From Erysipelotrichaceae bacterium (lineage in GTDB: Bacteria > Bacillota_I > Bacilli_A > Erysipelotrichales > Erysipelotrichaceae): a stretch of 32,345 nt of DNA. Below the pieces are notes generated by a model. It made no database searches. It saw only the letters and a list, made by a program, of their open reading frames with translations, and had not been told where the DNA came from. Where the stretch lies: positions 1 through 32,345 of the forward strand of contig JAFRJA010000091.1 of NCBI GenBank assembly GCA_017432545.1. The letters run 5' to 3'. Within the stretch, counting starts at the first letter, position 1. Every line of letters starts with the position of its first letter. Made by a program: the position numbers and the translations under genes. Positions 25,561-30,294 of this stretch are shown one piece after another.

Positions 25561-26184
25561 ATGCGAAAAATTCTTATTATTTTGTTCTTGCTGATCATCA
25601 ATATTCTGTCATTTGAATATCTGAAAGAAGTGATTTATGAAAAGAAAGCCTATGATCTGAAGCTCAATCATAATGTTTTTATTTTGCCAAAAAAGGAAAT
25701 ACTGCTCAATGATACAGATGAATTCAGGCCTGAAGATTATTTTGAATTTTATTCTTTCAGTGATTTTTCTTATCGCTATTATTTTGATGAAAAATCACTT
25801 TATCTGGAAGTCGATGAAAACAATTACGTTTTTCCTTATGCGATCAGGGAAAAAGAAGTAGAAATAGTTGAAACAGTCGTAATTCAGGAGGTATATATCA
25901 GGGAAGAAAATGAGGCCACTCAACCTGTTTATGTCGAAGAAGAAAACGATCAGAATCATGATTTTGAATACGAAGATAAATACTTCAATCTGACCAGGGA
26001 TCATTTTAACTATGTCAGAGGTTCATCTGTATCTTCTATCATCGCTGATATCCAGAATTACATCCAGACAAACAAGAGGGTTACGATCGATTATTCTTCA
26101 TTAAACCCCAATGACAGCGGGGAATATTCCGTATTTCTGATAACAGATGATAATACTTATACGGTTTTTGTGAAAATCGATTAG
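25561..26184 (+). CDS. Membrane-anchored or secreted Ig-like protein, unknown function
   Basis: 207 aa. The N-terminus MRKILIILFLLIINILSF is a signal sequence or membrane anchor. The rest is polar, acidic and aromatic, and should lie outside the cell. The last 55 residues (VRGSSVSSIIADI...IDYSSLNPNDSGEYSVFLITDD...YTVFVKID) resemble the bacterial Ig-like/DUF5011 pattern in which a final Asp-x-Gly-x-Tyr-x-Val turn precedes two strands. Residues 32-85 may be a second, more diverged copy. A Glu/Val-rich linker (about 98-135) joins them. There is no Shine-Dalgarno, and the ATG directly abuts the greA terminator T-run. The next gene encodes a surface adhesin, so the pair probably acts at the cell surface. 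No orthologue recognised. Confidence 0.7.
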   Translation: MRKILIILFLLIINILSFEYLKEVIYEKKAYDLKLNHNVFILPKKEILLNDTDEFRPEDYFEFYSFSDFSYRYYFDEKSLYLEVDENNYVFPYAIREKEVEIVETVVIQEVYIREENEATQPVYVEEENDQNHDFEYEDKYFNLTRDHFNYVRGSSVSSIIADIQNYIQTNKRVTIDYSSLNPNDSGEYSVFLITDDNTYTVFVKID

Positions 26185-26226: not shown

Positions 26227-28059
26227 ATGAAAAAAATAGTTTTAAAAATACTGATATTACTGCTTCTTACATCATCTTTTGTATATATCGCTGCCGAAGA
26301 TGAATACGAAGACATGAAACCGTGGCAATTGAAGATCCTATTACAGAACTGTGATCAGAAACAGGAGATCAAAGTTGTAAGGTACTACAACAACGTTACC
26401 GACAAGGTAGGATTCTGTATTGAACCGGAAGTAAACTACAACCGTTTTGATTATGTCTATACCAAGGATTCCTATCCGGAAAACGAAGTATTCAATATCG
26501 TTAGAGCCTATAACGAATATAACGATGAAGAACATTTTATTTCTGCTCAACTGATGATCTGGGAAGCTGTTAGTGGCAATGTCTATACCTTTGAAGGAAA
26601 AGATGCCTCAGATTTTGGTAAAGACGATCTGCTTACTTTAATTGAGGGATACAAACAGGATGATAATACGATAAATGAAAAAATCGATGTAAAGGCTGGT
26701 CAGGAGAATACTTATTCTTTTGAAGATCTGAGCTCCTATACGATTGAAAGTAATGATGTTACTATCACAGACAAATCTGACACTTCATTTGCTTTTACAA
26801 TCAATGATCCTGATAAAAAAGATAATCACATCTTTTTAAGATCCAGGATCAGAAGAGGAAACGGTGCTTTTATCTATCATTCAGAAGGATCACAGGATCT
26901 TTATTCCTATGAAGGTGATTATTCTAACAAGAAAGATATCGATCTGAAACTTGATGTTTCAAAAGAGGAATATGTAACTTTGAACTTCAGCAAAAAAGAT
27001 ACTTCGGGTAATTGTATAGCCGAAGCTGAGTTTACACTATTTGATCTGGAATCAGATTCTGCCAATGAAACAATGTATATCCTGCAGAAAGACAAAAATG
27101 TCGATCTGTTCAGAATGCTGGTGGAAGATTATCCCAATTATGATCTCAATAAAGTTGAAATCAGTTTATCAGAAAGATTTGAAAAGTATCTTGATGGCAC
27201 GATCATCAAAGCCTCGGAAACCGGTGTCTTTCCATTCACGATCAGATATAACGGCAATATTCTCAAAGAAGGCAAAGTTTTCGTCTTTGAAGATCCGAAT
27301 CAGACCATGGGTGAATATCGAAAATTAAAAGTCAGAAAAATAACTTCAGTTTTAACAGCTAATGATGAGATCAATCATATCAGTGATGTTAAAAAGGGGC
27401 ATAAGTATTATCTTTGTGAAACGAGGCCTTCAAACGGCTATGAATATGCATCCGATCCCTGCAAGATTATCAATACGGCTGATAACAGTTATGAAACACC
27501 GGTGAATTTTATAAATTCCATCAGAAACTATACTTTGAAACTGGTAAAAAACGATCCTGATCATATCTATAAACTTAACGGAGCCAGATTTGAAATGGAA
27601 TATGAAGACGGAAAAGAACTAAAGAGAATCGAATTTGTTACAGGGGCTTTGAACATAACGCAGACAAAGGATCGCAAATACGTAATCTATCGCTATGAAG
27701 GTTCTGATGAAGTCAATGTTGAAGAGTTCAAAAATGCTTATTTCATCAAAGAAAATGTTCCATACGGCAGATATTACTACTATCTGGCTAATGAGCCTGA
27801 TATTGACTTAAACAAGCTTAAAAACAAATATATCGATGTATCTGAAGGATCCTATACGATCCAGAATATTCCTTATGACAGTGCAGTAACCATAAAAGAA
27901 CTTAAAGCTCCTAACGGTTATATTATCGATCCTAATGTATATAAACTTGTACCGGATATTTCATATGATGAAGTAACCTATAAGAACTCCCGAGTCAATA
28001 CGGCACTGATCATTCCGGAAAACAGACGCAAGATCCCTAAGACATGTATAGAAGACTGA
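26227..28059 (+). CDS. Thioester-domain/SpaA-type surface protein without a membrane anchor
   Basis: 610 aa. Signal peptide (1-23, cleavage likely near IAA|ED). Residues 40-150 look like a thioester domain: Cys64 in GFCIEPE and Gln108 in SAQLMIWEAVSG match the paired Cys and (T/S)Q-x-x-IW motifs whose Cys-Gln bond covalently captures host targets in other Gram-positive adhesins. Two SpaA/Cna-B-like modules follow: about 250-432 (Lys256/257, E-box Glu398 in YLCETRPSNGY, Asn427/430) and 434-592 (Lys441, Glu558 in IKELKAPNGY, Asn587), with residues fit for Lys-Asn isopeptide bonds. The C-terminus is IPENRRKIPKTCIED, like a sortase motif (IPKTG) with Cys for Gly, but no hydrophobic tail follows. 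Strong GGAGGGAG precedes the ATG. The end overlaps comEA by 16 bases. Confidence 0.78.
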   Translation: MKKIVLKILILLLLTSSFVYIAAEDEYEDMKPWQLKILLQNCDQKQEIKVVRYYNNVTDKVGFCIEPEVNYNRFDYVYTKDSYPENEVFNIVRAYNEYNDEEHFISAQLMIWEAVSGNVYTFEGKDASDFGKDDLLTLIEGYKQDDNTINEKIDVKAGQENTYSFEDLSSYTIESNDVTITDKSDTSFAFTINDPDKKDNHIFLRSRIRRGNGAFIYHSEGSQDLYSYEGDYSNKKDIDLKLDVSKEEYVTLNFSKKDTSGNCIAEAEFTLFDLESDSANETMYILQKDKNVDLFRMLVEDYPNYDLNKVEISLSERFEKYLDGTIIKASETGVFPFTIRYNGNILKEGKVFVFEDPNQTMGEYRKLKVRKITSVLTANDEINHISDVKKGHKYYLCETRPSNGYEYASDPCKIINTADNSYETPVNFINSIRNYTLKLVKNDPDHIYKLNGARFEMEYEDGKELKRIEFVTGALNITQTKDRKYVIYRYEGSDEVNVEEFKNAYFIKENVPYGRYYYYLANEPDIDLNKLKNKYIDVSEGSYTIQNIPYDSAVTIKELKAPNGYIIDPNVYKLVPDISYDEVTYKNSRVNTALIIPENRRKIPKTCIED

Positions 28060-28514
28060 TCGCAGTTTTACTGATCATAGGCGCGATCTTTTATCTTTCA
28101 TTCAGTCTTGATTTCAGACAGATCGATGAATCTGAAACAATATCTGTTGAAATAAGAGGCAAGGTGAAAAATCCCGGTGTATACCAACTGCCTTTGGGAT
28201 CGACGATCGAAGATATTTTGAATTTGGCCAAACCAACAGAAGAAGCCAATCTTGATGTCCTGTCTTATCAGAGTGTTCTCTACAACAAGCAGATCATAGT
28301 GATCGAAGAAAAAAGTGTAAAGAAACTTGTTTCTATCAACAGCGCATCCTTGGAAGAATTATCTACTTTACCGGGTATTGGCCCATCAACGGCCGCCAAG
28401 ATAATTGAATATAGAGAAAATATCGGTAGTTTTCAGACTTTGGAAGATCTCATGAAAGTTAAAGGAATAGGTAATGGCAAGTTCAATAAACTTAAAGAAT
28501 ATATCTGTCTTTAG
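28044..28514 (+). CDS. comEA: Competence DNA-binding protein ComEA
   Basis: 156 aa. ComEA is the membrane-anchored receptor that binds incoming double-stranded DNA. RRLIAVLLIIGAIFYLSF (3-20) is the membrane anchor. An SLBB domain follows (about 32-90, VEIRGKVKNPGVYQLPLGSTI), then the helix-hairpin-helix DNA-binding pair (SINSASLEELSTLPGIGPSTAAKIIEYR and LMKVKGIGNGKFNKLK). The ATG lies inside the upstream surface-protein gene (16-base overlap, -1 frame), so its translation is coupled to that gene. No independent promoter was seen. The comEC start lies inside its 3' end. Confidence 0.93.
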   Translation: MYRRLIAVLLIIGAIFYLSFSLDFRQIDESETISVEIRGKVKNPGVYQLPLGSTIEDILNLAKPTEEANLDVLSYQSVLYNKQIIVIEEKSVKKLVSINSASLEELSTLPGIGPSTAAKIIEYRENIGSFQTLEDLMKVKGIGNGKFNKLKEYICL

Positions 28515-30294
28515 ACTGATGTTCCTGTTGGTTTTGAATTGTCATTATTTAAACATATATCTTTTTATCTTCAGCTGTATCTATCTACTGTTTACTGATT
28601 ATAAAGAAATGATTCTGTTTATTCTTCTTTCAGGATCAGTATATCTTATAGAGAGGTATCGCATTGATTTTATTCCTTTCGGTATCGTTGATCATATCAG
28701 TGGCAAGTATTATGTCGTTGATAAAGTTCTTTATAAAGTCAAAGTCATTTCACAATTATCCTTAAATCATGGCGATATCCTTTATTTTCCATTTCAGTTG
28801 GAACGGGTAAATGATGATTCTCAGCTGAGTAAAAACATATTATATTCCGGAGAAGCGGGGAAGGTGATATTCAAATTCTTTCCCCGTCTTTTCATTGAAA
28901 GGCAGATCGCCAAACTCAATAACGAAAGTTCTTCAATAATAAACAAGCTGTTCTTCAACCAGTATCTGCCATCTGATTTTGACTACAATCTCGGTTATGG
29001 ATTGATGTCGTATTATCTGTTCCGTTATATCTACGCCAAGAAACCGATAATCGGAATTATTTCAATGACCATTTATTCATTGTTTTTTACTTTCGAAGTG
29101 AAGTTTTTACTCCTGTTCCTTGATTTCTTTTTAAAGAAGAAAAGCGATAAAAGTAAAGATCGTTTTGCGATCAAAGTAATAGTATTGTGTCTGTTGAATA
29201 AAGATCTGATAAACAATTACTCGATAACGTTGCCTCTACTGTTTAATCTGTTTACTTTTATCAGGAAAGACCTTGATTTCAAGACTTATCTCTTGTTTAT
29301 AGAATCCTTGTTATTTGGTGAATGCGGGCTGATCTCCGTCTTTCTTTATCATAAGCTGATCATATTGAAGATAATTGTTTTCGTATTCACTATAATAACA
29401 ATCCTGATACCTTCTTTTGAAAAAATATTTCTTTTAATAATCCAGATCTATTCCTTCATCAATTCCTTTGATATATCTCTACGTGGTTCGATATCGCCTT
29501 TATGTATTCTTATCTTTTTGCTGTTCAGAAAATACGCACATTATAAAAACTTTGATTTGAAATTTGTTTTATTGATCATTCTGATAATTCTTCCGATTAA
29601 TTTTCCTTTTACACACGTAAGCTTTATTGATGTAGGACAGGGTGATGCGATATTGATCAGAAAAGGTTTTATACCTTCGGCTATAATGATCGATACCGGA
29701 TCATCATTTAACTATTACAAACTTAGAAGCGAGCTGATGAAAGAAGGAATATATACGATCGATCATCTGATCGTTACGCATGAAGATTCCGATCATTCAG
29801 GAAATGTTGAAGCACTAAAGAAAGATTTCAGAGTAAAGGAAGTAATAACTGAAGGAAAAGATTTTAATTGGCATGGTCTTTATTTTGATCATCTTGATCT
29901 GGGTACTTATGATAACGACAATGATAATTCCCTGGTCTATTATCTCAATATCGATAATAAAGGATTCTTATTTACCGGAGATATATCCAAGCAGATCGAT
30001 GATATACTGGTAAGAGATTTCGGACAGCTTGATATCGATTTCCTTAAAGTAGCTCATCATGGTTCGGTAACAGGGACAAGTGAAAAGCTTATTTCGTATT
30101 TCCTGCCTGATTTTGCGATCATTTCCACCAACGGATTATATGGTCATCCTCATGAATCTGTACTAAAGACATTAAAAAAATATCTGGTCAGATATTATGT
30201 GACTAAATACTCTTCAACGGTCAGTATTTACTTTACAAAGTACTACGATCTGCTTAAAACCGGGAAGGGCGAATTTGTTATAATTAAGTCGTGA
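28474..30294 (+). CDS. comEC: Competence DNA-channel protein ComEC, compact form
   Basis: 606 aa, against about 770 in Bacillus. ComEC is the polytopic channel for single-stranded DNA entry. The N-terminal half has many hydrophobic segments, with a short soluble part (about 60-135) where the OB-like domain is expected. The C-terminal third is a metallo-beta-lactamase-like domain: FIDVGQGDAILI, THEDSDHSGN (metal-binding His/Asp), FTGDIS and VAHHGS. The ATG at 28474 overlaps comEA by 41 bases but has AAAGGA seven bases upstream; an ATG at 28519 lacks any Shine-Dalgarno. The smaller size is mostly in the membrane/OB part. It ends in GTGA shared with holA. Confidence 0.92.
   Translation: MASSINLKNISVFRLMFLLVLNCHYLNIYLFIFSCIYLLFTDYKEMILFILLSGSVYLIERYRIDFIPFGIVDHISGKYYVVDKVLYKVKVISQLSLNHGDILYFPFQLERVNDDSQLSKNILYSGEAGKVIFKFFPRLFIERQIAKLNNESSSIINKLFFNQYLPSDFDYNLGYGLMSYYLFRYIYAKKPIIGIISMTIYSLFFTFEVKFLLLFLDFFLKKKSDKSKDRFAIKVIVLCLLNKDLINNYSITLPLLFNLFTFIRKDLDFKTYLLFIESLLFGECGLISVFLYHKLIILKIIVFVFTIITILIPSFEKIFLLIIQIYSFINSFDISLRGSISPLCILIFLLFRKYAHYKNFDLKFVLLIILIILPINFPFTHVSFIDVGQGDAILIRKGFIPSAIMIDTGSSFNYYKLRSELMKEGIYTIDHLIVTHEDSDHSGNVEALKKDFRVKEVITEGKDFNWHGLYFDHLDLGTYDNDNDNSLVYYLNIDNKGFLFTGDISKQIDDILVRDFGQLDIDFLKVAHHGSVTGTSEKLISYFLPDFAIISTNGLYGHPHESVLKTLKKYLVRYYVTKYSSTVSIYFTKYYDLLKTGKGEFVIIKS
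30276..30284 (+). promoter_or_regulatory. Extended -10 within comEC, placed for leaderless holA mRNA
   Basis: TGTTATAAT, an extended -10 with perfect hexamer, ends six bases before the GTG start of holA. There is no Shine-Dalgarno at this junction and no clear -35. Confidence 0.5.

Follow-up and report, generated by a model that had tools for sequence, protein, structure and literature searches.

A class II thioester adhesin with a conserved, tail-less IPKTC end, encoded next to comEA in gut Erysipelotrichaceae

In class II thioester domains (TEDs), the Cys of a [YFL]C-phi-zeta motif bonds to a Gln on a late strand, as in the Cys296-Gln467 thioester of SaTIE, and the Gln of the TQXX-phi-W motif is not required for this bond (PMC6194298). 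SaTIE from S. aureus (6FX6) and BaTIE from B. anthracis (6FWV) both carry a sortase sorting signal. A different arrangement is found on the B. subtilis conjugative plasmid pLS20, where the conjugation operon encodes TIEpLS20, a class II TED adhesin that has no sorting signal and is sortase-independent (PMC8092201). In streptococci, SrtB anchors AbpA, a protein that ends in LPKTS-AVK and has neither a hydrophobic nor a charged tail. The AbpA signal cannot do without L, P and T or without its last three residues, but it tolerates replacement of the residue after T (PMC4974636).

We analyzed a window of 32,345 nucleotides from an Erysipelotrichaceae bacterium (here, the window is the whole stretch of DNA examined), in which the gene order is greA, a gene for an Ig-like membrane protein, the adhesin gene, comEA and comEC. 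The adhesin gene is an intact 610-aa open reading frame (26227-28059, + strand). Its product comprises a signal peptide, a thioester domain, two SpaA/CnaB modules and a disordered tail ending in IPKTCIED. The Sec-type signal peptide (MKKIVLKILILLLLTSSFVYIAA; 26227-26295, + strand) was read from the sequence as residues 1-23, with an inferred boundary; residues 2-16 form a helix in the AlphaFold model, and the hydrophobic N-terminus is kept across the aligned orthologues. Downstream lie comEA, encoding a DNA receptor with SLBB and HhH domains (28044-28514, + strand; Pfam HHH_3 and SLBB), and a gene for a comEC-like DNA-uptake channel (28474-30294, + strand), assigned from a Pfam Lactamase_B match and its position beside comEA. 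The product is an adhesin of a known type (internal thioester and cross-linked stalk) placed between DNA-uptake genes. Its identity as an adhesin is nearly certain, and its link to competence is suggested by gene position only; T2SSE/ComGA-like genes occur throughout the genus, and their presence does not discriminate.

The adhesin resembles BaTIE and SaTIE in its thioester fold, FC-phi-zeta motif, late-strand Gln and CnaB/SpaA stalk, and differs from them in being tail-less and encoded in a com operon. With TIEpLS20 it shares a class II TED, CnaB modules, the lack of a sorting signal and a place in a DNA-transfer operon (PMC8092201). TIEpLS20, however, has a large C-terminal region and no LPXTG-like end, whereas the present adhesin is chromosomal, sits at comEA/comEC and has a conserved IPKTC. 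By analogy, based on the TED and the com-operon position, TIEpLS20 is the nearest functional precedent. The C-terminus resembles that recognized in the AbpA-SrtB system of oral streptococci, where [LI]PKT-x plus three residues also ends the protein without a tail (PMC4974636). AbpA, in contrast, is small, binds amylase and has its own sortase gene directly downstream; the present adhesin has comEA downstream, Cys at P1′ and a genus-wide class B-like sortase that lacks the catalytic Arg.

The thioester domain spans residues ~24-243 (26296-26955, + strand). A profile of 11 orthologues matched the SaTIE thioester domain among PDB sequences (6fx6; 1.6e-5). The AlphaFold model (mean pLDDT 87, pTM 0.57) agrees with a class II fold with an inserted beta-sandwich: its top Foldseek matches are class II TIE proteins and include BaTIE (2.5e-15) and SaTIE-TED (9.2e-10). 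Global TM-scores were low, which is not surprising in a model of several domains whose orientation is uncertain. The profile and Foldseek matches together therefore identify the protein as a class II TIE-type adhesin. The Pfam TED model (PF08341) matched 9/20 family members (best 3.9e-6), and the 610-aa adhesin itself had no match.

The original prediction paired Cys64 (GFCIEPE) with Gln108 (SAQLMIW) in an internal thioester. Both residues are present and the adhesin type is upheld, but the predicted partner is a different Gln. Cys64, in the FCIE form of the [YFL]C-phi-zeta motif (26416-26418, + strand), and Gln223, in SQDLYSYEG (26893-26895, + strand), are invariant in all 19 relatives covering the region. 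In the 6fx6 profile alignment, chain Cys47 (Cys296) lies opposite Cys64, and chain residue 218 (Gln467) lies opposite Gln223. Gln108, in AQLMIW (TQXX-phi-W; 26548-26550, + strand), is Ala or Thr in two relatives (G067 and G070), both of which retain Cys64 and Gln223. This loss, together with the class II structures (PMC6194298), rules out Gln108 as the thioester partner and leaves it a structural, non-bond-forming residue. The residue preceding Gln223 is Ser, so the weak late-Gln motif fits only in part. These data predict a Cys64-Gln223 thioester.

The two stalk modules proposed in the original prediction, each with a Lys/Glu/Asn set, were borne out by a Pfam SpaA match (1.4e-11) and by conservation. 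Module 1 (26965-27525, + strand) has the candidate isopeptide set K256/E398/N430, with invariant residues and strands in the model. Module 2 (27526-28002, + strand), to which Pfam assigns SpaA, has the candidate set K441/E558/N591. K256, E398, K441 and E558 are invariant in the alignment of relatives, and N591 is replaced by Asp in one of them. The conserved residues are fitting for isopeptide bonds in both modules.

The C-terminus (...RKIPKTCIED*; IPKTCIED at 28033-28056, + strand) has no canonical sorting signal of LPXTG, hydrophobic segment and basic tail, just as had first been noticed, and residues 596-610 are disordered in the model. Of the com-locus relatives, 18, drawn from three genera, have a readable 3′ end, and every one of these likewise lacks a hydrophobic or basic tail; the open reading frame is intact wherever it was seen. 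None of these relatives has a full LPXTG tail, which rules out a frameshift or truncation of the present copy as the cause of its missing tail. Eleven species end in IPKTCI(G/E)(D/N/E)*, with VPKTC occurring once. Over 10 orthologues, pairwise identity was 95% for IPKT versus 41% for the whole protein, a conservation equalled by only 8/589 four-column windows, and the codons for Ile, Pro and Lys vary synonymously. The IPKT end, judged from this conservation and these substitutions, is not due to chance and is under purifying selection. More distant com-locus adhesins end in PVKTCVE (G004), VPLLCTRD (G026) or IIPNTGCSKRY (G154), or without a motif (genus g24), and all are tail-less. IPKT is missing from the related com-locus adhesins that lie outside one clade (those of G004, G026, G199, G067, G070 and G204).

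The adhesin 3′ end overlaps the comEA start by 16 bases (28044-28059, + strand), and this overlap encodes the Cys. The comEA ATG at 28044 is in the −1 frame and lies inside the ACATGT that codes for Thr-Cys in all IPKTC orthologues. The comEA start (ATG-TAY) thus fixes the Cys codon but not IPKT. The candidate signal has the layout seen in AbpA, [LI]PKT-x followed by about three C-terminal residues, as IPKT-C-IED and IPKT-C-IGD/N/E.

Most relatives recovered from a scan of GTDB contigs with an alignment query were Erysipelotrichaceae metagenome-assembled genomes, many of them from the ruminant gut, and they included Solobacterium sp. UBA3303. The assembly to which the window belongs (G000) is 3.4 Mb, versus 1.0-2.4 Mb for congeners, and has 5% estimated contamination; this bin may contain more than one strain. 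A further contig of G000 (C59, locus L215) carries a 2369-aa SpaA-containing open frame that runs off the contig start. Immediately upstream of it are genes whose products have type IV pilin-like N-termini, and T2SSE ATPases are encoded on the same contig.

Tail-less ends are not confined to the com locus. In 13 other SpaA proteins of the lineage, we found a terminal [ILV]PxTG motif followed by no more than 1-11 residues. Five of these were scanned with Pfam; all had SpaA and TQ ester-bond domains, and four had SHIRT. Canonical tailed LPXTG proteins also occur in the genus, and the tail-less type thus coexists with them. The com-locus adhesins and the tail-less PxTG proteins have homologous last SpaA modules (NYR.N..II), and in the TIE/SpaA proteins L114, L116, L118, L188, L190 and L191 the motif likewise lies near the stop codon. 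These proteins differ from the com-locus adhesin in having Gly after Thr, SHIRT and TQ ester-bond domains in several cases, and an adjoining class B-like sortase with His-Cys-Arg; some lie near ParA/ParB-like genes. Together with L117, these six have a class B-like sortase gene directly downstream; in L114 and L116, the end of the adhesin gene is overlapped by the sortase start codon, just as it is by the comEA start at the com locus. There is no sortase gene adjoining the com-locus adhesin, which comEA follows.

Several side observations concern the tail-less loci. The L114 and L116 cassettes (tail-less LPXTG adhesin, sortase and Ig-like protein) lie near ParA/ParB-like genes, suggesting that they are on mobile elements. 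What looks like a fragment of a gene lies on G000:C109 (L119:4016-5530): this 505-aa open frame ends in RIPETGI*, follows unrelated genes and is similar to the tail-less adhesins in their C-terminal part only. Several TIE-type adhesins have beside them a small membrane protein (L114:6017-6754, L115:4974-5585, L116:8791-9882, L120:6020-6646 and L216:3360-4073) whose C-terminus shows a conserved HHDAxYRxxxHDPxYxxxHH-like pattern. These adhesins are tail-less where the end is visible, and no convincing Pfam domain was found in the two copies of the membrane protein that were scanned.

Many class B-like sortases escaped a scan with PF04203 and were recovered only by a protein query. With this query, a class B-like relative was found in 34/36 genus genomes; the class B-like assignment of the sortases rests on sub-threshold TIGR03064 matches together with PDB SrtB matches. 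The genus-wide core sortase (G000:C114:56189-57085, equal to L124:4190-5086, and 20 orthologues) keeps His and Cys, and its catalytic Arg is replaced by Phe or Tyr in 21/21 core orthologues. The accessory sortases paired with the tail-less proteins retain this Arg. In B. anthracis SrtB, the substrate is positioned by the Arg and no longer binds when this residue is lost (PMC11987632). No other class B-like sortase was found in several IPKTC genomes (e.g., G012 and G027, both <80% complete). A check of whether IPKTC and the core sortase clade occur together gave a consistent result, but one confounded with species phylogeny. Where inspected, the core sortase gene sits after ddl-like and VanY-like genes.

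The Ig-like membrane protein (25561-26184, + strand) was characterized by alignment, distribution and modelling. The model shows an N-terminal transmembrane helix followed by Ig-like strands, with weak Foldseek matches to InlK and a Rib domain. Its gene lies directly upstream of the adhesin gene at every locus inspected. The Ig-like gene is also present without the adhesin in nine species (G017, G018, G023, G032, G071, G150, G159, G184 and G195), which weakens the case for this protein as a dedicated anchor. The adhesin may depend one-way on the Ig-like protein, or its gene may merely be sited there. In a tree of GreA, the Ig-like protein and ComEA, the IPKTC species fall in one clade, which also holds three adhesin-less species, and the adhesin history on this tree needs at least five gains or losses.

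As the best single explanation, we tentatively favor a minimal, tail-less sortase signal of the AbpA type at the IPKTC end, at slightly less than an even chance; the original prediction did not consider such a signal. According to this model, gut Erysipelotrichaceae would express a class II TIE adhesin from the comEA/comEC operon and secrete it. Through its N-terminal Cys64-Gln223 thioester, the adhesin would attach covalently to an amine of a partner surface, and its stalk would consist of two SpaA modules locked by isopeptide bonds. IPKT-C-I(G/E)(D/N/E) would be the minimal sorting motif, at which a class B-like sortase or a relative would capture the secreted protein without a membrane-retention tail, and part of the protein would be released. 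The homologous tail-less PxTG proteins encoded beside class B-like sortase genes are consistent with such recognition. Counting against it are the Cys in place of Gly at P1′, the Arg-less core sortase, the lack of an adjoining sortase gene and the limitation of IPKT to one clade. The same Arg-less sortase favors sortase-independent retention of an anchorless TIE adhesin, possibly through the Ig-like protein, with IPKTC as a docking peptide. TIEpLS20 is a precedent in a DNA-transfer operon that needs no host sortases (PMC8092201), and the Ig-like gene directly upstream of every inspected adhesin fits as well. Nine species nevertheless have the Ig-like gene and no adhesin, and IPKT resembles a sortase motif and parallels the [ILV]PxTG ends encoded beside sortase genes; we consider retention of this kind possible but rather unlikely.

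The signal peptide, the disordered C-terminus and the lack of an anchor in any relative would also suit a fully released, soluble protein that covalently tags host or other bacterial surfaces, its C-terminus having another role. Stalk modules make most sense when anchored, however, and the strong constraint on IPKT and the lineage parallels with sortase neighbors also speak against release, which we regard as unlikely. A truncated relic, one of the options raised in the original prediction, is strongly disfavored. An ancestral LPXTG adhesin could have lost its tail when the end of its gene fused with the start of comEA, leaving IPKTC as a remnant; in G154, comEA starts inside the Gly-Cys codons of IIPNTGCSKRY*, so that deleting a single codon could convert T-G-C to T-C. 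This origin is improbable given tail-less ends in three genera, intact reading frames, and the retention of IPKT in 11 species, where it is 95% identical and its codons change synonymously. Far-fetched by comparison is a programmed −1 frameshift that runs on from the adhesin into ComEA, whose N-terminus is hydrophobic. The −1 frame is that of ComEA, and the hydrophobic segment of ComEA starts right after IPKT, which would yield IPKT plus a membrane segment, but the 16-base overlap has no conserved slippery sequence in 11 species, and the product would carry the whole of ComEA behind the membrane segment.

In the literature searched, we found no experimentally supported tail-less sortase substrates beyond AbpA and no paper joining "thioester domain" with "comEA". 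Sortase substrates are usually searched for as LPXTG followed by a membrane segment and a basic tail, and tail-less substrates of this kind would thus be missed or called truncated. Here, more than a dozen adhesins of one bacterial family have a tail-less layout, and seven are encoded beside sortase genes. It is conceivable, if doubtful, that Erysipelotrichaceae adhesins regularly use tail-less motifs as a second kind of sorting signal, handled by class B-like sortases that act on secreted substrates without membrane retention, and that the com-operon adhesin is dedicated to DNA uptake or cell contact, its Gly-less motif matched to the Arg-less sortase relative. Thioester adhesins are already linked to DNA transfer through conjugation; the com-operon position widens this link to include a possible role in DNA uptake, during which the protein may act in adhesion.
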